DNA of 64,000 nt, taken from positions 124,001-188,000 of the forward strand of contig JAQMWT010000370.1 in NCBI GenBank assembly GCA_029834535.1, written 5' to 3'. Below are positions 39,565 to 58,300 of the stretch, piece by piece. The stretch is from Chrysophaeum taylorii (lineage: Eukaryota > Sar > Pelagophyceae > Pelagomonadales > Pelagomonadaceae). Each line of letters opens with the position of its first letter. The first letter of the stretch is position 1. Made by a program: the position numbers and the translations under genes. Under the pieces are notes generated by a model. That model saw only the letters and a program-made list of their open reading frames with translations. It had not been told where the DNA came from and did not search any database.

Positions 39565-39636
39565 TGCCCCGGTAGGGATTCGAACCCTAGTTTTCCCGGC
39601 CACAACGGGAGGTACTAACCACTATACGACCGCGGC
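39565..39636 (-). tRNA. tRNA-His (GTG)
   Basis: 72 nt without CCA. The D arm CGTATAGTGGTTAGTAC is the standard eukaryotic tRNA-His one; the anticodon loop TTGTGGC gives GTG in a 5-bp stem TCCCG/CGGGA; the T arm is TAGGG-TTCGAAT-CCCTA. The acceptor GCCGCGG pairs with CCGGGGC except for one G-G at the fourth pair. Confidence 0.9.
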
Positions 39637-39770: not shown

Positions 39771-39842
39771 TGCCCCGGTTGAGATTCGAACTCAAGTTTT
39801 CCCGGCCACAACGGGAGGTACTAACCACTATACGACCGAGGC
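39771..39842 (-). tRNA. tRNA-His (GTG), second copy
   Basis: 72 nt, same D and anticodon arms as the copy 206 bp away. The T arm differs (TTGAG-TTCGAAT-CTCAA) with compensating changes on both sides, and the acceptor GCCTCGG/CCGGGGC pairs fully, counting one G-T wobble. Compensation suggests both copies are or were functional. Confidence 0.92.
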
Positions 39843-46751: not shown

Positions 46752-49700
46752 ATGATGGAAGCGCCGGAAGCGAAGACGGCAATGCGAGAGACGGCGCCCG
46801 GCATGTTGGGGGGCGGTGAAGCGCAGACGGAAGAAGAGGTGACGCCCGCCATCCCGATGAGCATAAACGCGCTGGACGGCGAAGGTCGACGGACAGATGC
46901 GCTGAGCGAGTTGGACGTGGTTGTGGTGGGCGCAGGAATGGCGGGCCTGTGCTTCGCGCGCGACATTGCGTCGACGGGCAAGCGGGTGCTCGTGGTCGAC
47001 CGCGCTGGAGAAATTGGCGGCGCGCGGACGGCGCGCGCGTTCCCTCGGATCGACGCCCTCGGGGCGATCTATCGTTGCCTCAGCCTCGCGCCCGCTTGGA
47101 CCCGAGAGCACGCCGCCAGCGAGTGGTACCGGCCGACTTGGGACGAGGTGCGGACCTACGCCAAAGCGCTCGTCGACCATCCCAATATCACGGTCGAGAC
47201 GTCGTGCGAGTTTTACGACGTGCGGCAAGAGACGAAGCTGCCCGTCGCAACAACCAGCCGCGGCGACTTTGTGGCCAAGGTGGTGTACCTCGGTGACACT
47301 GCGACAGGGTCGAGCCTGACGAGATTACGGGGCGAGAATACTGCGTCGTCGTCGTCGCCGAGAATCGTGCGCGCGTCCGATCTCGACGCGAAGGCGTTCG
47401 CCGAGCTCGGAGCCGCGTCTGGTCGCATTGTCGTCGTAGGCAGCGGCAGGGCGGCCCTCGACATCCTGCTCCAGCTCGAAGAGCAAAAGGCACGCGTGTT
47501 GTGGGCGCACCGAGGACACGCGACTTTCTTTGACCGCGACAAAGATCCTTCGAAAATTTTGGATCTATTGAACGCGCTGCTCGTCGAGGCGGAGAAAACG
47601 GGGCAGAATTTTTCTGAAATAGGCATTGATCGCGGTCTGTTCCTCGCGGCTGGTGGCCCGCTGACGAAGCAGCAGCCCTCCTCCTCCGAGACGGCCTGGG
47701 CTGCCGCAGATGCTCTGGAGCTGCAGCGCGCGCGAGGCTTTGAACAGCTTTACGTCGACGCGCTCGAGGACGACACCTCGGGGAGCGTTTTGCTCGAAGG
47801 AAGGCGGCTGGTTAACGATCGCGTGGAGCCCGGCAGCACCGAGTCCTCCATCGTGCTCGGCGGCGAGAACGACTGGCTCGTCCTCTGCACGGGGGGCATC
47901 TGCTGGAACAAGAAGAAGCCGACGCACTTATTTTTCGGGTCCGAGCGCCGTCGTACCGCGTGCCCAACAACAACATCCAGCGACGTGCCTCTCTCCGCCA
48001 TCGTACCACTCTGCCTAGCACTCGAGTGGCTGAACTGCGGGACGACGACGACGACGACAAACTCGGTCGCGTCAAAGCTTGATTCCGAAGACCGCGGCGT
48101 CGTCGAGCACTCGTCGGAAAAATCTCGCAAACTTGATGATACGACAGATCTCTCCGGACTCTCTTCTTCGCTTCCCGCCTTGGTTTTGCCAGGAGATATC
48201 GCGTACTCGAACGAGTGGATCGCTGACTGGTATGGCCGCAACCTCGACGTCCGCGAGTTTCTGTGCCATTTCAGGGCTCCGTCGTCCGTATTCAGCGCAT
48301 CTTCTTCGAGCGACGAAACGAGGTGGCGGAAGCCCGGCTGGTGGCGACCTGCCTACGAGAGCCCCGGGCTGCTCGCTCACGCGGACCGCGTCGTCGGCGA
48401 GCTCGGCGACGAGAATTTCATGACGTGCGTTCATCTCCTCCTTCTTTCGATCGATCACACTCGACTTTATTTTCGTTCTTCCCAGGTGGCTCAACATTTC
48501 TGGGAACGTCGAGACCGAACTTTCGTTCGAGGACGCGTGGCGCGCGTCGCGGGCGATCGCAGGGTATCTGACCACCGAATGGGGCGCGGGTGTTGGGAAT
48601 CGCATCTTGCTCTGCTACGCACCTGGTCCCTCCTTTTACCTGAGCTTCTTGGCTTGTTTGCGGTGCGGGGCCGTCGCCGTGCCGGCATACCCCCCCGATC
48701 CGTCTAAGCTTCAGCTCGGCGTCGAAAAGCTCCGGCGCATCCAGGAAAATTGCGACGCCAAGCTCGCGCTTTGCGATACTCAAGTCAAAAAGCTCCGGCA
48801 GGCAAGTTTTTTCGTGGAGTGGCCGCGCATCGAGTGGCTCAACACGGAGGAGCATCTACCTTTCGATCCACCGAGAGCATCCGACGACGTCGGCCGCCGA
48901 GCAAACGACGACGACGACGACGGTGGCATCGCCTTTTTTCAGTACACGAGCGGCACCACGGGTAACCCAAAAGGTGCGTGCGCGCCGGCCTGCTTGCTGC
49001 TCGGATCGATTCCCCCCGACTTTGACTTTGTGACTTTGACGCAGGCGTGATGGTAACGCTCGAAAACATTTGGCACAACGTGAACGAAATTTACGTTCCC
49101 ACGCAAAAACGAACCGCCGAGCTCCGCCTCGGCGTCGACGTCGCGCGGGAACTCTTCGAGATCCGCCGCAGGACACCGCGCGTCACAGGTATCAGCTGGT
49201 TGCCTCAATACCACGACTCGGGGCTCGTTCTGATGTTCGTGGGTTCCTTGGTCGCCGGCTACCACCTCGTCAGCTTTTCGCCCCTCTCCTTCCTCGGCAA
49301 CCCGCTTCTCCCCGTTTCGAGTCTCTCGAAGTATCGCGCGCACGTCTCTGCCAACCCTGACTTCGCGTACAACCTCATCCTCAAGCGCGCTGGTGGCAAC
49401 ATCGATCGCTTCATTCGCGAAGAACGCGTCGACTTGAGCACTATCTTCTGTCTCGGAGCTGGAGTCGGGCAACGGACGCGTCCGCCGCAGCTTCGAGCTT
49501 TCTCATTAGCTTTGGCGCCGGCTGGTCTGTCAAGCACCGTCTGGCAGCCGGCATACGGCCTCGCGGAGCACGTGGTTGCCACAGCGTTTGAGATTGATGG
49601 GATCGTAGTCTCGGCCGCGAAAAATTCGCGCGTCGTCGTCGCGTCTTGCGGCTCGCAGTCTCTGTGCGCGTTGAAGGTCGTCGACTCACAAAATTGCTTG

Positions 49701-51968
49701 GAGCTTCGCGATGGCAACGTCGGCGAGATCTGGCTAAGCTCCCCGTCTGTTGCCCTCGGCTACTTTGGCATGCCCGAGCTGTCGAAGACGACGTTCCGTG
49801 CCAAGTTGGTCCCGAACGACGGCCGCGAGTACCCGCGGACGGGCGACGAGGGTTTTCTGGAAAAAGGACGTCTCTTTGTTTGCGGCCGCATCAAAGATCT
49901 CATCATTGTCGCTGGTCGCAACTACTACCCCGAAGACTGCGAGCTGAGCGCGGAACGGGCGTGCCCCGACGAGGTGCGGCCGGGCTGCGCGGCCGCCTTC
50001 TCGACGTCGAACCGCGACACCGCGGAGGAGATGTTGGTCGTAGTCTTCGAAATCCGGGCAAACTTCGTCGAGGACGCCGCACGAGTCGCGGGTCTCATCG
50101 CGCGCAAAGTCACGTCAGATACTGGGCTCGCGGCGGGCCGCGTCGTCGCCGTCGCCGAGCGGACCGTGCCAAAGACGACGAGTGGTAAGGTGCGCCGTCG
50201 CGAAACCCGCGACGAGCTGCTAGCAGGCAAGCTCCGGGTGCTTTTTGACTGGACTCCGTCCTGCGTGCCCAGCAGGCTCGAACTGCAGAAAACCAACAAA
50301 CCATCCACGACTTCCGCCGCCGTCTCGAGCTTTTTTCTCGACTGGGGGTCGCGACTGGCGAGCTTCGTGTTGTCGTCGTCTGGCGGGCAGCCAGAAATCG
50401 CTCAAGAAGAGACATCATCCGAGAGTTGTCTTCGTGAAATGATCAAGCGATTGTGCAGCGAGGACAAACTTTCTTCGCGAGTTTCTGCCGCCGCCGCCGT
50501 CGGCCTCGCGTCGTCAAAGTCAAAGTCGTCGCAGTGCGACGATTTCAACACAAGATCGTCGCACGATGGTGTGGCCCTCATCGAACGCGTTGCGAAACAG
50601 ATCGTGGGATTATTCCCCGCGGACACAGAATTGAAAACCCACCCAGATATGCCCGAGATGTTTGGCCAGCTCGGCGTTCCCGCGACCTCGTTGGAACACC
50701 ACCTCCTCAGGCACGATGCGTCCATCACTTTCGTGTCAGATTTTGTAGACGCCATCAAGCGCAGCGTTGTTGCCATGCCTATTCTTGTGCGGGCGGCGCA
50801 GGAGCTCGAGGTCCACTTCCCCGGTCTCGAGCTTCCGGTTGCTGACGACCGAGCCGCCAACGACTTGCGCGCCGCCGTGATCTACTGCTACGCTTTGCAT
50901 ACGATTGGCGTCTCGATGCTTCGGACGTCAGAAGAAGACGGTGGTGCTCTTGATTTCGCTGTTTGCTACCTCGACGAGCTCCTAGGTACGTCGAAGATAG
51001 ATACGAGGCGCTACTTGGAAAGGTGGTCTTCGGACCGTGCGATATCAACCGCGAAACTCGAGTCTATTCTGGCGGGGGCTCAACTATTCTGCGACATTCG
51101 ACGGGACACCTCGAGCAAACTGCTTTCCACGAAAAATAAGCTGGGGTGGCTTTGCGAGAATATTCTCGTGGATGTCGTCGAGGACGTGAAGAGAAATCAG
51201 AACTTGGGGAACGCTCGCGCTGGAGTCGAGCTCGCGTTTTGGAGCTGCTTTCCCCAGCTTGAAAGAAGCAAGAACCTCGAGGAGGAGGGGGCGAGTGCCA
51301 TGTATGGCGGAGTCTCCGGGCTCGTGAAGTGTCCCGTGGCACCGAGCATGAAAGCCGAGTGGGTACAATTGTGCATTCTCTGGAATCTGACGTTTGGGCT
51401 GGCCGCCGATTCCCTCTTATCGCGTGCAGCACTACTCTTGGCACCCTGCTTGCTGGCCTTATCAACTGACGATCCCGACTTTTTCGTGTGAATGCGAGCG
51501 ATGCTGCTTTCTGCTCGAGTCAAGTCGCTCGTTCGGGAGCCTCCTTCTCCTCGACTGGCATTGATGATCACGTCGACAACAACGCACGACTGGAGGTCGC
51601 CACGGACCGTCGAAATACTTGGACGCGTGTGCGAGGGCCTCGCCTGCCAATTGTCGACGGACATTGCGGCTCGGCTTCCAAATGATAATACTAAAGCTTC
51701 TCTTTCTCGCGCGCTCGGTATCCAGCTTTCAAAGAGTCGAGATCTCGTACTGCAGCGTATGCGTCACTTTGAAACAGCAGGAGACGCGGCAGGAGACGCG
51801 GCACTCGCATCATCTCCTCAAGACCTGCCGCCCATTTCTCCGAGCGCTACTACCGCGGTTGATGATGAACCGATATCCTCAAATCTCAGTTCCACCTCGC
51901 GCGACGAAGACCGAGAGCTCGGTTGGGGGAATGAATTGGCTTCTGAGATCTCGGGCGACTTCCCTCGG

Positions 51969-51999
<31 letters not shown>

Positions 52000-54900
52000 G
52001 TGCGGCGGAAGTTGAAGAAGGATGTGTCTCTGACGTAATGTTCGCCGAGGCTCCTGTCAGCGAGAGTCTGGCGTGCGACAACTTCACCACCGAAGCAGCA
52101 GCAGCAGCAGCAGCAGAAGCGGCGCTGGTTAAACGCAGCATCAGCCGCGACGACGAGAGAGCACGCGCAGCAGCAGCCCGCGAGCAGAAAGTAAAAGTCA
52201 TCGAAGCGCGCGTCGTTGAGTATCTGCGCAACGCGAAGGGCTTTGACATCAGCGTCGACCAGCCCCTCGTTCGCCAGGGTGTCACATCGCTCGAAGCCGC
52301 CGAGTTGGCGTCGTTGCTCGTCTCGTGGCTCGGCCGAGGCAAAAACCATCATCATCATCATCTGGCACTAGATGTGCTTCTCGACCCTGGAAACACCATC
52401 GCAGAGCTGTCGCGAAAGCTCGTTGACCGTTGGTGTGAGACCACCACGCCCCATCGATCGATACGAATTGTGCGGAGCGACGACGGGTCTGACGTTTCCT
52501 GGAACCAAAAACAATTGCTCGCCGCTCAAGCCGTGTCTGGTGAAGAAGGCAAGAGCGCGTACAATCTTGCCATCGGCTGGCGACTGCGTGGCGACGTGTC
52601 TCGCGAGGCACTAGACTGGGCCTGCGGGGAATTGGTGAAACGTCACGAAATTCTTCGAACGACGTACGAAATTGATTCGGCAACCGGAGAATTCGCCGCG
52701 TCGGTTGAAGCGTACGAAGGTGTCGATATGAAGGTGGTAAGCACCGAGCTCGAAGAGGAGGCGCTGGCCATGGTTCGGTCTTACGTTCGCCGGGAGTTTG
52801 ATCTGCTCGCCCAACGCCCGGTCTTTCGCATTATTTTGGTAAAATTACCCGACTGTCACGTCGTCGCGTTGGCGATTCACCACGTTGCCCTCGATGGGGC
52901 TTCGGGCATTTTGGTCGCTCGCGAGCTGGCGCAGCTCTATGCGGGCTACGTTGCCGGCGGAAACAGCAGCAGCAGGTCATCACTGCGGCGGCGGGAACTG
53001 CCGTTTCGGTACGCCGACTTTGCTCGAACGCAACGGTCGATGCTCTCGGACGGAACCCTCGAGGCTGAGATTGAGTTCTGGCGCGAACACCTGCGCGACG
53101 GCGATCTGACGCCACTCGACATGCCCCTCGACAAACCCCGGCCTCCAACCCAGAACAGCATTCGAGGGTCCGTCGTGCACTTGAAGCTCCAGCCTGAGAT
53201 CGCCGCGAGGCTCGAGTCGACGGCTCGTTTCCGGAATTGCACGTTATTCGAGGTGCTGTTGACATTGTGGAGCCTCCTCCTTTGCCGTCACAGCGGTCAG
53301 GACGAGGTCGTGGTTGGCGTGCCATCACACGGTCGCGGTTTGATTCCCGGATCCGAAACCGTCGTGGGATACTTCGTCAACACGCTGCCGATGCTCGTTC
53401 GCGTCCGCCGCGGCCAAAGCCCCGTCGAGTTGCTCGACAGCGTCCGAACCACTGTGAGATCCGCCAAAAAAAATGCCGGCGTGCCCTTTCAATATATGCT
53501 CAGCAACCTGCTCCCTCGCCTCGAGCGCGACGCTTCGCGCAACCCTGTGTTCCAGACGATGTTTGCCTGGGAACCGCGAGAAGGGTGGAGTACTTTAGCA
53601 GCCGCGGCAAGCTGGGGGCCAGACGTGCAAGCCCAACCTGTCGAGCTCGACCTCATACCACCTGTCGTCGGCGACATCGGGCTCTGCGCTTTGATGCACA
53701 GCAACGGTCTACTTGACGCAAAGATCATCTACGACGCTCGAATCTTCGACGCGTCGACGATTCGAGCTGTTGCCGAGCGCTTCGTTTTGCTGGCGGAGGA
53801 GTTCGAGGTTAACGTCGTCGTCAATGCTTCGCACCAGAATACCCCGGGGCTCCTCGTCGCGGACGTTTGGAGTCTGCCCATGATGAGCGACATCGAGCGT
53901 CGGATCTCGCGCGATTTCAACAACAACAACAACGCTGCTGCTGCTGCTTCCAGCGAATTTCCAAAAGATCTTTGCTGCCTCCACGACCTCGTATGGGCGC
54001 AGGCTGACCGCACTCCGGAACGCCCCGGGATCGAGGTGGGTCGGGGCGTACTCACCTACAGCGACCTCGAGCGCAAAGCGCGCGCGCTCGCCGAAGTACT
54101 GATCACGACGTGTCAAATCCTCGCCGACCGTATCGTCGCGCTTCAGCTCTTCAGGACGCTCGTGATGCCGGTGGCGATTCTCGGGACTTTGACCGCCGGC
54201 GCTGCATATATGCCACTGGACCCTGAAAAGTGGCCCGTGGACCGTCGCCGCTTCATTGTTGAGGAAGCCAAGTGCGTTGCGCTGTTAGGCACCGAGGAGT
54301 CGACGCGCGATCTCGCCGATGTGTCGCGAAACGTGGTGCTGATGACCGAACATGGCGACGTCGTCAGATCAAAATACGCCGCCGTTGATGCCGCCGCCGT
54401 TGATAGTGTCGTGCCAGAAGACAACAACAACACAAGGTCGCGACCAAGGCCGCAGCTTTTGGCATACGTGATTTACACGTCGGGGTCTACCGGCCGACCC
54501 AAGGGCGTGCTCGTCCAGCACGATGGCGTCGTCAATTTGCTGCAGGCTCGACAGAGGCATTTCAAAACAGTGTTCCCAGATGCTTTTGACCAGCGCCAGA
54601 CGACAATCAGGGTCGCCGTTACCTTGAATTACGTGTTTGACGGTTTCGGACACAACTTCTACTCGTGCGTCTGTGTTCTCGGCGGTACGGCTTGCCTGCT
54701 GCAGAGTGGGCTGTCTCTCTTGACTGTCAAGGATTCGGACAAGATAACGCACATTCACGATGTTCCATCGGTCCTCGCTTTGCTTACAAAATTACCTTCC
54801 ACGGTCCGGCTCGTCGAGTCCGGCGGGGAAGCTCTCACGCGCGCCGCGGCAACGGCGGGCTTGATGTGTGGCCAGCTCTGGAACACCTATGGGCCCACCG

Positions 54901-57900
54901 AAGCGTCCATCACGACTCATGTGAAAGATGTACATGATATCTCATCATACAAGGCCCTATCGTCCATCGGTGAGTCCTTTTATATATTTATTGTGCCCAA
55001 CCTACGTCCGCGTAGGTCGTCCTTACGATAACGTGACGTGTTACGTCGTGGACCCCGAGTCCTTTGGGCTTCAACCAACAGGCATCTTCGGCGAACTTCT
55101 GCTAGGTGGCATACAAGTAGCGCGCGGCTACCTGAATCGCCCCGAGCTCACGGCCGAGCGGTTCATCCGGAACCCTTGGCCCGAGACGGACCCGTCGGGC
55201 CGCGGCGTCGTCTACCGCACTGGCGACCGGGCACGATGGCTTACCAACGGCGACATCGAATTTGGTGGACGCATCGATCACCAGGTCAAGATTCGGGGGT
55301 ATCGCGTTGAATTGGGCGAAATTGAAACCGCGCTTCGTTCGCAGCAGGGCGTCGTCGACGCGGTCGTCGCGCGAGCGTGCTATGATCTAGATGCTGCGCT
55401 CATTGCGTACGTACAGCCGGCGGGTGTAGCAAAGAATGCCCTCGATGGCATTCGAGGACAAATTCCGTCGTACATGGTCCCTTCTTCAGTGACCGGTATC
55501 GACGAGTGGCCTCGCACAGCGAGCGGGAAGATCGACCGCAAACGGTTGCCCGAGCCAGCGAAGCCGCTACTGTCGAATCAAGAAACTCGAGCCGTGCCCC
55601 GTGCAGCAGCTTCGTGTGTTGAGGATTTGTCTGTTGTTGAAACGAGCGTCAGAGGTTGCTTCGCTCGAGTTCTTGGGTTGCCAGACCCAAATTTAATCGG
55701 CGCCACTCGTAGCGCGTCCGAGCTCGGCGCAACTTCGTTGAGCGTTGTTCTTCTTCAGCAGTCTCTTCGCAAAGCCCACCCCGACGTGGAGATCCCAATG
55801 GAGATACTGATCGACAATCCTTCTATCGAAAGTTTGACGACCTATATCAAAGCTGTTCGCGATGATAATAATACAGATACTCTCGACGCGAACGACGCCC
55901 TCGAAGACGAGGTGAAAGAATGCGAGCCGACCAAACCTTCATCAAAACAACAACAGGTCGTTTTCGATGACGCAAAAGTCATCGACACAACTTCCGAGAC
56001 CGACGACGTGCCTACGAGATCATCATCATCACTCGTGCGACCTCTTCTCTGGGTCACGGCCGGCGCGTACTTGGTCGCGGCGTTCGTGGCGCCAGCCTGG
56101 CTGGTCGTGTGGCAGATCGACGTGGCGAATTACCGAACTTGGGATGGTTTTTTTTACGTGCCGCTCTTCGCATGGATGGCGATCGTCGCCCTCCTGGTTC
56201 TCGAGACAGCCGTCACCCGCCTGCTTTTATCCCAGTTCTTGCAAGTCGGCGAGATCCCGCTCGACTCGCGCGCCTACGTTGGCTATTGGCTCTTACAGAG
56301 AATGTACGAGATGAACAGAACGCTCTTCCTCGAAGAGTTCCGTCGAACGCCGATGCTTAACTGGTATTTTTGGTTGCTGGGAGCCAGGATTGGCCAGCGC
56401 GTTGTTCTCGACACGACCGCGGTTCTTGATCCTGACTTGACGACCATCGCCGACGACGTCTACGTCGGGCCGCGAGCCACCATCAAAGCAGGGCATTATG
56501 ATCCCGGCAATAATTCCCTGACCTTCGAGGCTATTACGCTTGGACGCGGCGCGACCGTGCGCCAGCGTGCTGTTATAATGGGCGGCGCTCGAGTCTGCGC
56601 AAATTCGACCGTTCCAAGCCTTGGCGTCGTCGCCTCGTCCTCGTCGTCCTCGTCCTCGTCCTCGTCGTCCAGCACTCGGAAACTTGCGTCATCATCCTGG
56701 CTCGCCAGTGGCGCCGCGTTGTACGTGGTCTTGCTGACACTATCCGTAACGATGCAACCGGCATTTATCGCAATTTCGCGGATGCTCGAGCACCACGACC
56801 TCTATCCGCCGCCTCGACTCCGCCGCGAACCGTTCCATCATCGCCCAGAGGCTTTCTTCACTTTTGCAGCCACATACTTGGTCTCGCCCGTTTACTCTAC
56901 GCTTCTTACGGTGTTCGTCGACACTGACCCGAGATTCTTGCGGCAGACGTTCGTGGGCAAGATCGACCGAATGTTGGCAATCTTGCTGCCCATTTGTGGT
57001 CTCTTAGTACTCCAGAATCTCATCTTGATGGCCACCGCGCTCCTGTTCCATCGAATCCAGAAGACGCTCCCTCGCAATGCTTTCCTCGACTTGGTTTTCG
57101 ACAAGCTGAGCGAGTCGATCTATCGTCGATCTGTCGTCGAGTTCGCCGGAACTTGGGTTCTCGCCGCTTACTATCGAGCTCTGGGAGCGTCGATTGGCTC
57201 GTACAGCTCCATTGACATGATGCCCGAGCGAATCCGGAACCCCGGAAAATCTACGCCTCGGAGACAAAGTACATCTCGGAAGCTTCTGCTCGATTCAGCC
57301 CACGCGCGAGGCAACCGTCACGATCGAGGACGGGAGTATCATTGGCTATGGTGCAGTGTGCGCAGCATCTAACGGTGACGACGCTATCCACATTCCGATG
57401 CTCTCGCTCATCGGAGGAAATACGTGCATCGTCAACGACGGTTACGATTGCCTCGAAGAAGGAAAACTGACGATCGACGTCTCCACATTACTTGCTGACA
57501 GTCGCGAGGCCAGGAGGGGAGCTTTTGGGAAGAAATCCACTTTCTCGTGGGATTCAAAGTCGCGGGAGATTCTCGACTACGACGCACGGTTGAGCTCGGT
57601 CGAGAAGAGCCTCTACGTCCTCGTGCCGTTTCTCATTCAGCTGTGGCGCTACGTCCTGCTGAGCACGACGTGCTATGTCACCGCTCGCGTTTCGACTTGT
57701 GTATTCGCCTACGGCAAGTATCAATGGAATGGGGCTCATCCCCTGCTTCCGCGGATCGTGGCCGCGATGGCTGCCGTGGTGGCCTTCGTCGCGACCTACG
57801 CGGCCGTCGCAGCACTCAACAAGTGGCTGTGGATCAGAGCAGACGTTCGTGGCAGGCGAAAGCGAAGCTGGAGGCAGTTCAGTTGGGGCTTTTGGCTCGT

Positions 57901-58300
57901 GTACTTGTCTGACGCGGGTCGCGGTGGCTTCGCTCAAACAGCGTCTTTCTTCATCAACGGCACGACGGCGTACAACTGGGTGCTTTCTGCCCTCGGTGTT
58001 CGCGTTGGATCTGGGGCGATTATCCTGTGTCCGGTCTACTGGGACGCTCACATGCTTAAGATCGGTCGCGGTGCCGTCGTGGAAGGCGGCGCCGTGCCCT
58101 TTTGTCACCAGTACGCGTCCGATCGTCTTACGGTCGACGCGGTCGAGATCGCCGATCACGCTGTCGTCGAGAGCGGCGCGATCACGAGTGCTGGTGCGGT
58201 CGTCGAAGGCCGATTGTCCCCAAACAAGCTCGGCATACCACCGCCGATCGCTCGGAGTCGTCGCTCGGAGGAGTGGTCTTCGAGGCGACGCGCGCGATGA
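46752..58300 (+). CDS. Giant hybrid: FAD oxidoreductase - acyl-AMP ligase - ACP - NRPS (C-A-PCP) - membrane beta-helix terminal domain
   Basis: Model: join 46752-48424, 48486-48973, 49045-54969, 55016-58300, about 3,800 residues. Parts in order: two-Rossmann oxidoreductase (VVVVGAGMAGLCFARD, then RIVVVGSGRAALDILLQLE); fatty acyl-AMP ligase (FFQYTSGTTGNPKG, GISWLPQYHDSGL, RTGDEGF, TTSGKVRR); an unassigned helical part (50.4-51.5 kb); carrier protein (GVTSLEAAELASLL); condensation domain (AIHHVALDG); adenylation domain (YVIYTSGSTGRPKG, NTYGPTEASI, YRTGDRARW, RTASGKIDRKRLP); carrier (ELGATSLSVVLLQ); then several transmembrane helices with hexapeptide-repeat beta-helix pieces, like the terminal region of epsilon-poly-lysine synthetase. 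There is no thioesterase. Inferred job: activate a fatty acid, condense it with an amino acid, and release or transfer the product at a membrane. The aspartate in VFDGFGHN fits an alpha-amino-acid substrate. Two blemishes: an in-frame TGA at 51489-51491 and a one-base frame slip near 57240. Confidence 0.85.
48425..48485 (+). other. Intron 1 of the megasynthase, 61 bp
   Basis: GTGCGT ... TTCTTCCCAG. Splicing joins ATG-AC to G-TGG-CTC and moves the oxidoreductase frame into the acyl-AMP ligase frame. Confidence 0.88.
48974..49044 (+). other. Intron 2, 71 bp
   Basis: GTGCGT ... TTTGACGCAG, inside the AMP-binding motif: TTGNPKG continues as VMVTLENIWHN, as in other acyl-AMP ligases. Confidence 0.88.
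54970..55015 (+). other. Intron 3, 46 bp
   Basis: GTGAGT ... CCGCGTAG. Splicing restores SSIGRPYDNVTCYVVD, the standard A-domain stretch SIGRP..N..VYVLD. Confidence 0.9.

Follow-up and report, generated by a model that had tools for sequence, protein, structure and literature searches.

Fatty acyl-AMP ligases (FAALs) form acyl-AMP and load carriers, and condensation domains join the acyl chain to an amino acid that an adenylation domain has loaded. Nonribosomal peptide synthetases (NRPSs) started by a FAAL, membrane end domains of the Pls/PosA type and flavin monooxygenases are each already known. The closest described systems include the bacterial FAAL-started lipopeptide synthetases, which hold a FAAL, a carrier, a condensation domain, an adenylation domain and a second carrier in one protein, and fusion of a FAAL to an NRPS or a polyketide synthase (PKS) is on record in the relevant passages of a review (PMC11837247). 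According to the same passages these synthetases end otherwise than the locus described here, in the case of desmamide with a thioesterase (PMC11837247) where ours has a membrane domain, and the word monooxygenase is absent from the main text of that review. For Pls/PosA, the cited passages of PMC10522769 give a layout of adenylation domain, carrier and membrane domain without a condensation domain, state that in Pls the membrane end domain shares in polymerisation, and place eukaryotic homologues on record.

The pelagophyte alga Chrysophaeum taylorii produces antibiotics (PMC10366177) and, according to one abstract, mucilage. In the passages cited here, its genome paper reports a 71 Mb assembly built from Nanopore, PacBio and Illumina reads, counts nine NRPS and 13 PKS genes, and names an FAD-dependent oxidoreductase and a left-handed beta helix (LbH) as atypical domains of the PKSs (PMC10366177). 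Those PKSs, with FAD and LbH domains, share the genome with our locus but differ from it by their ketosynthases; architectures of NRPS genes are not given in the main-text passages of the paper (PMC10366177). In the cited part of one survey, NRPSs occurred in 7 of 32 algal species (PMC4661987). Across open-licence papers, represented mostly by titles and abstracts, we found neither a FAAL-monooxygenase fusion nor a FAAL-started line with the kind of end described below.

Domain organization of the locus

The window, by which we mean the whole analysed stretch of 64,000 nucleotides (G000:C370:124001-188000, from an assembly of 70.8 Mb in 697 contigs), belongs to the nuclear genome of C. taylorii. 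We compared six open-frame pieces of the locus with Pfam and NCBIfam profiles, and the profile E-values place the domain matches beyond chance. All enzyme types named in a preliminary description of this DNA were recovered by these profiles at their place on the forward strand, in the order that it proposed, and the three introns said to unite the frames are all GT-AG with CAG or TAG ends (Table 1). The eukaryotic host that it had assumed is a pelagophyte alga, with GT-AG introns in the gene itself; bacterial contamination was considered and rejected in view of the introns, the 266571-base contig and neighbours such as a PheRS alpha with DNA-binding domains.

Table 1 Features of the locus (positions are those of the window)
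Feature	Position	Strand	Remark
Whole locus	46752..58300	+	Opening-frame ATG (the first) through final stop codon; two interruptions
Flavin-monooxygenase-like domain	46899..48424	+	Rossmann motifs at 46920-46946 and 47430-47456
Intron 1, 61 nt, GT-AG	48425..48485	+	
Fatty acyl-AMP ligase (FAAL), two exons	48486..50243	+	
Intron 2, 71 nt, GT-AG	48974..49044	+	Within the ligase motif TSGTTGNPKG
Region X, no Pfam match, contains the in-frame stop	50541..51665	+	Conserved in three paralogues
In-frame TGA	51489..51491	+	Aligned codon TGG in 3/3 paralogues having region X
First carrier, limits approximate	52200..52430	+	Ser motif 52278-52298 plus position; below Pfam threshold
Condensation domain	52512..53792	+	HHxxxDG at 52878-52898
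Adenylation domain, two exons	53994..55539	+	
Intron 3, 46 nt, GT-AG	54970..55015	+	
Second carrier	55648..55848	+	Ser motif 55726-55746
Membrane/beta-helix end domain, first part	56038..57230	+	Frame of ORF 54925-57372
Homology frame-shift interval	57231..57247	+	No such change in 5/5 paralogues
Membrane/beta-helix end domain, second part, with final stop	57248..58300	+	Frame of ORF 57221-58300

The opening domain exceeds the Pfam cut-offs of FAD/NAD(P) oxidoreductase families, for example FAD_binding_2 and NAD_binding_8 at 34 bits each, and its PDB matches include phenylacetone monooxygenase (E 1.3e-4). Pfam AMP-binding matched in two pieces of the window copy. For the larger piece of the FAAL the top NCBIfam model is PRK05850, a fatty-acid--AMP ligase (199.9 bits), and among the eight best models six bear the name fatty acyl-AMP ligase or FAAL, the other two being the CoA-ligase PRK07768 (196.3 bits) and one NRPS/PKS model; the FAAL models thus outrank those of acyl-CoA ligases, with no model at its full-length cut-off. 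The short first exon of the FAAL scored best with a general NRPS/PKS model (56.8 bits), and in the FAAL region PF23024 reached 27.3 bits for a cut-off of 27. Region X of the window gave no Pfam match at E 1, and its predicted structure, with a mean pLDDT of 46.9, was set aside.

Further along, the condensation domain (Condensation, 196.4 bits), the adenylation domain (AMP-binding, 154.6 bits, with AMP-binding_C in addition) and the second carrier (PP-binding, 39.4 bits) all exceed their Pfam cut-offs, and together they constitute an NRPS module. Of the two carrier sites suggested beforehand, the second is therefore borne out by its profile, while the first is placed by its serine motif and its position and does not pass Pfam at E 0.01. 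The adenylation code, read tentatively by eye from the alignment, is D-G-H-H-E-G-T-I-T-K, and to our knowledge it matches no known code. In keeping with the preliminary description, there is no thioesterase in the Pfam lists for the open-frame pieces. Triplet repeats lie within the gene at 51970-52000, 52350-52366 and 56630-56672 (limits by eye) and give threonine, histidine and serine runs.

The membrane/beta-helix end domain

The end of the protein had been described as akin to the domain of epsilon-poly-lysine synthetase. The kinship holds, but membership of the TIGR02353 family does not: the two halves of the window C-terminus score 57.8 and 41.1 bits, and those of the paralogues introduced below 98.2 bits (C349) and 60.9 and 35.1 bits (C315), all far below the cut-off of 423.1. 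These profile scores mark the end domain as distantly related to the Pls/PosA model and not a member of it. Hydropathy predicts about five membrane segments across both halves in the window copy, the layout taken to define Pls/PosA being three pairs of membrane helices (six in all) with three intervening beta-helices. Structure prediction modelled only the first beta-helix usefully (pLDDT 74-87, residues 111-200), and a Foldseek search with the model gave a best E of 1.3e-3, with 0 matches at E <=0.001. An alignment of 11 end-domain pieces, in which column identity averaged 25%, was considered faulty and discarded. A pattern search for the end domain in prokaryote contigs yielded 150 matches, and viral contigs gave 8 pattern matches; none of either set was confirmed.

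With Pls/PosA the locus has in common an adenylation domain, a carrier and a membrane end domain with beta-helix repeats, which stands where a thioesterase would be. It differs in opening with a flavin domain and a FAAL, in possessing a condensation domain, and in the third place of the adenylation code, which is His in the window (by eye, tentative) but Glu in the diamino-acid codes quoted in PMC10522769. Because it fails the TIGR02353 cut-off and contains a condensation domain, we place it outside the Pls/PosA family proper.

A family of related loci in the C. taylorii genome

At least five other loci in the genome (C315, C52, C529, C390 and C349) combine a FAAL with the same kind of end. 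The preliminary description knew of no enzyme with exactly this order; the order itself stands, but it is no singleton since it has kin in the same genome, and by its domain content it belongs to a C. taylorii family in which flavin domains are variously placed. Read from part of their exons, the domain strings of the paralogues are as follows. C315 has FAAL, a region Y, region X, carrier, condensation domain, adenylation domain, carrier and membrane/beta-helix end; C52 resembles it, with its Y deduced from spacing, and C529 keeps the same type of order but with two modules of condensation domain, adenylation domain and carrier. No flavin domain related to that of the window was found in these three. 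In C390 a flavin domain of another type, amine-oxidase-like (Amino_oxidase, 44.8 bits), sits between the FAAL and the condensation domain (L034:1451-6370), and the string continues with a carrier placed by eye (no Pfam match), condensation domain, adenylation domain, carrier and membrane/beta-helix end. C349 is a single frame of 2090 codons that runs from FAAL through a monooxygenase-like domain, an unmatched region and a weak carrier (14.3 bits, below the Pfam cut-off) to the membrane/beta-helix end, and no condensation or adenylation domain was found in its 2077-residue frame. Only in the window copy, among these loci, does the flavin domain lie ahead of the FAAL.

Some further features of these loci may be recorded. 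The C349 gene (L026:989-7219, that is, G000:C349:20989-27219) is the smallest relative. Region Y in C315 (L027:3352-4845), roughly 250 residues long, separates the FAAL from X, and C529 has a similar stretch; in C315, Y together with the beginning of X gave no Pfam match at E 1. An intron follows the aligned Gly-Ala-Lys-Ile-Gly (window 57194-57230) in C315, C52, C529 and C390, and is absent from the window and C349. The C466 frame (L035:1731-4850) reads FAAL, carrier, ketosynthase, without a membrane/beta-helix end within the frame; a weak Condensation match lies about 4 kb downstream, and the locus is perhaps a PKS-NRPS hybrid. Finally, G000:C671:139059-145613 is a frame of 2185 codons that Condensation matches weakly in two places (50.8 and 43.5 bits) and that also contains adenylation-like stretches.

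Relatives outside the genome and divergence of the flavin domain

When 5.8 billion proteins were searched with the flavin domain, and 7997 candidates similar in length were scored among them, one clear relative, P0001, and one short weak match, P0002, came to light. P0001, encoded on a 7205-bp ENA contig, is 33% identical over 81% of the flavin query, and like the window copy it fuses a FAAL to a related flavin domain; its order is different, however, being FAAL, flavin domain and the start of a second flavin domain, where the sequence is cut off at 982 aa. A protein search with residues 560-1300 of C349 found only C349 itself among 7981 scored candidates. A third, whose search region still included the end of the adenylation domain, gave at least 120 matches, those listed being mostly bacterial NRPSs, and supplied the NCBI model of C529 (P0006) as well as the outgroups of the tree below. 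Prokaryote contigs gave at least 65 loci with distant, monooxygenase-like matches to the flavin domain; among the 65 listed, the flavin query matched again in 47 and the end domain in 0, and a FAAL-like stretch was present in 3 of these 65, adjoining the flavin match in none of the three. Since no flavin-FAAL fusion occurs among these listed loci, a bacterial origin of the fusion was rejected.

Class B flavin monooxygenases are marked by a GGxW loop and by a His fingerprint that precedes their second Rossmann motif. Both Rossmann motifs of this class are present in the window copy, but both of these marks are lost: the tryptophan of GGxW is missing, as are two positions of the YPGLRLH loop and the HSS ahead of Rossmann motif two, while C349 and P0001 retain GGxW and HSS. 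In a comparison of three rows (window, C349 and P0001) with no outgroup, the window is the odd one out in 45 of the 261 columns without gaps; for the other two rows the counts are 25 and 29. These changes hint that the flavin domain of the window may be weak or inactive.

Two interruptions in the window copy

The locus had been taken for a single uninterrupted gene encoding a working enzyme. Once introns 1 and 2 are spliced out, the frame that opens with the ATG at 46752 extends for 1535 codons and then meets a TGA, at which the three paralogues with region X (C315, C52 and C529) all have TGG (tryptophan) and on both flanks of which they align unbroken. From 51492, with intron 3 removed, 1901 open codons lead up to 57240; in the frame-shift interval of Table 1 the homology then passes to the next frame, a change of one base in a region where a single frame is kept in all five of C315, C52, C529, C390 and C349. 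As assembled, the window copy does not encode one protein, and because of the in-frame stop and the frame change neither the single gene nor the working one-gene enzyme stands as stated. The paralogues speak for a single long gene as the earlier condition. Removal of the TGA by splicing was also considered and rejected: the only in-frame small intron visible by eye near 51486 would be 39 nt long and end in AAG, unlike the CAG or TAG of the three introns of the locus, and the stretch is coding in the paralogues.

How old these interruptions might be was judged from a condensation-adenylation tree of six algal rows and five bacterial ones, the latter taken from the 120 matches listed in the third search. 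A branch with full support sets the six algal rows apart, and the window row branches first among them; its end branch measures 0.88, where the five paralogue rows sum to 0.89-1.00, which argues against a long relaxed period in this stretch. The catalytic motifs outside the flavin domain seem intact, as judged by eye against consensus forms. Intact-looking motifs and an unremarkable branch length together suggest that the window copy is either a very recent null or wrongly assembled at two places; we infer recent loss, or assembly error, rather than old decay.

That the alga has an intact gene, and that misassembly accounts for the TGA as well as for the frame change, is a serious possibility, to which we would grant only a little less than an even chance. 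The motifs present outside the flavin domain (by eye) and a condensation-adenylation stretch evolving no faster than that of the paralogues are what one would expect of an intact gene, and short homopolymers lie beside the frame change in an assembly for which long Nanopore reads were used; yet Illumina and PacBio reads also went into it, the aligned paralogue stretches are uninterrupted at both places, and the stop is a base substitution rather than an error of length. A division into two or more genes, one (flavin domain, FAAL and X) ending at the TGA and a second (carrier, condensation domain, adenylation domain, carrier and end domain) beginning at or after 51492, is very improbable, for although an ATG directly follows the TGA in the same frame, the split would cut a region that is unbroken in all three paralogues and would leave the frame change unexplained.

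Proposed biosynthetic scheme

We consider it about evenly balanced whether the window gene is an interrupted copy of a family (flavin-monooxygenase-like domain, FAAL, X, carrier, condensation domain, adenylation domain, carrier and membrane beta-helix) whose intact form would probably begin by loading a fatty acid, with predicted oxidation of this acid, its coupling to a single amino acid and probable delivery of the product to an acceptor at a membrane. The FAAL would form the acyl-AMP, from which the fatty acid would be loaded onto the first carrier; the flavin domain is predicted to oxidise the carrier-bound acyl chain; the condensation domain would couple this chain to one amino acid on the second carrier; and the end domain, in the thioesterase's place, would likely transfer the completed chain, at the membrane, to an acceptor such as an amine or alcohol. 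The lipo-amino acid put forward in the preliminary description remains the simplest product to predict from the domains, and no product of such lines is known to us.

The acyl chain is suggested as the redox substrate because the flavin domain adjoins the FAAL in all four arrangements seen to hold one, namely the window (flavin-FAAL), C349 (FAAL-flavin), C390 (FAAL-amine-oxidase-like flavin) and P0001 (FAAL-flavin-flavin), and because an amino-acid module is absent from the C349 frame. Oxidation would not be a family-wide step, since C315, C52 and C529 are without a related flavin domain. Alternatively, the amino acid and not the acyl chain could be the substrate of the flavin domain, or the domain could have no substrate at all. 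Natural-product flavin monooxygenases often act on amines, and the hallmark residues are lost in the window copy; the repeated adjacency to the FAAL and the C349 arrangement without condensation and adenylation domains in frame (P0001 is cut off before its end is visible) nevertheless make this alternative unlikely, if by no means negligible.

The end domain, in turn, is suggested to be a releasing acyltransferase. C349 closes with a domain of this kind and has no condensation or adenylation domain in frame, so it could close a line that makes no amide, and transfer is favoured over polymerising because the amine is acylated here and C349 has no adenylation domain. Polymerisation as in Pls/PosA, leading to a lipid-capped poly-amino acid, would accord with the kinship to TIGR02353 and with the part that the Pls domain takes in polymerisation according to the passages cited (PMC10522769). 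It appears improbable to us in view of the condensation domain of the window copy, the His (by eye) in the third code place where the quoted codes have Glu, and the C349 frame without an amino-acid module.

Returning to transfer to a membrane acceptor, a broader reading can be put forward tentatively, and with rather more doubt than confidence: pelagophytes may hold membrane-ended acyl synthetases with a swappable tailoring slot next to the FAAL (monooxygenase, amine-oxidase-like flavin domain, or Y/X), in which the Pls/PosA-like domain would be a releasing acyltransferase and not a polymerase, and the window copy would have been caught in the course of being lost. Such a family, with shared start and end and differing middle domains in one genome, would amount to a natural swap experiment, revealing the role of the Pls/PosA-like membrane domain when no polymer is possible and the substrates of flavin domains fused to a FAAL. 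As C. taylorii makes antibiotics and mucilage, membrane-linked lipids and lipo-amino acids would be worth seeking.

Genomic neighbourhood

Ten neighbouring frames were scanned, and a gene cluster was rejected, no further NRPS/PKS, P450 or transporter being found among them. Seven of the ten have Pfam matches (ribosomal S18, sulfatase, cNMP-binding, alpha/beta hydrolase, PheRS, peptidase M48 and FGGY kinase), and the alpha/beta hydrolase lies about 21 kb upstream of the gene. Two tRNA genes are located on the - strand of the window, at 39565-39636 and 39771-39842.
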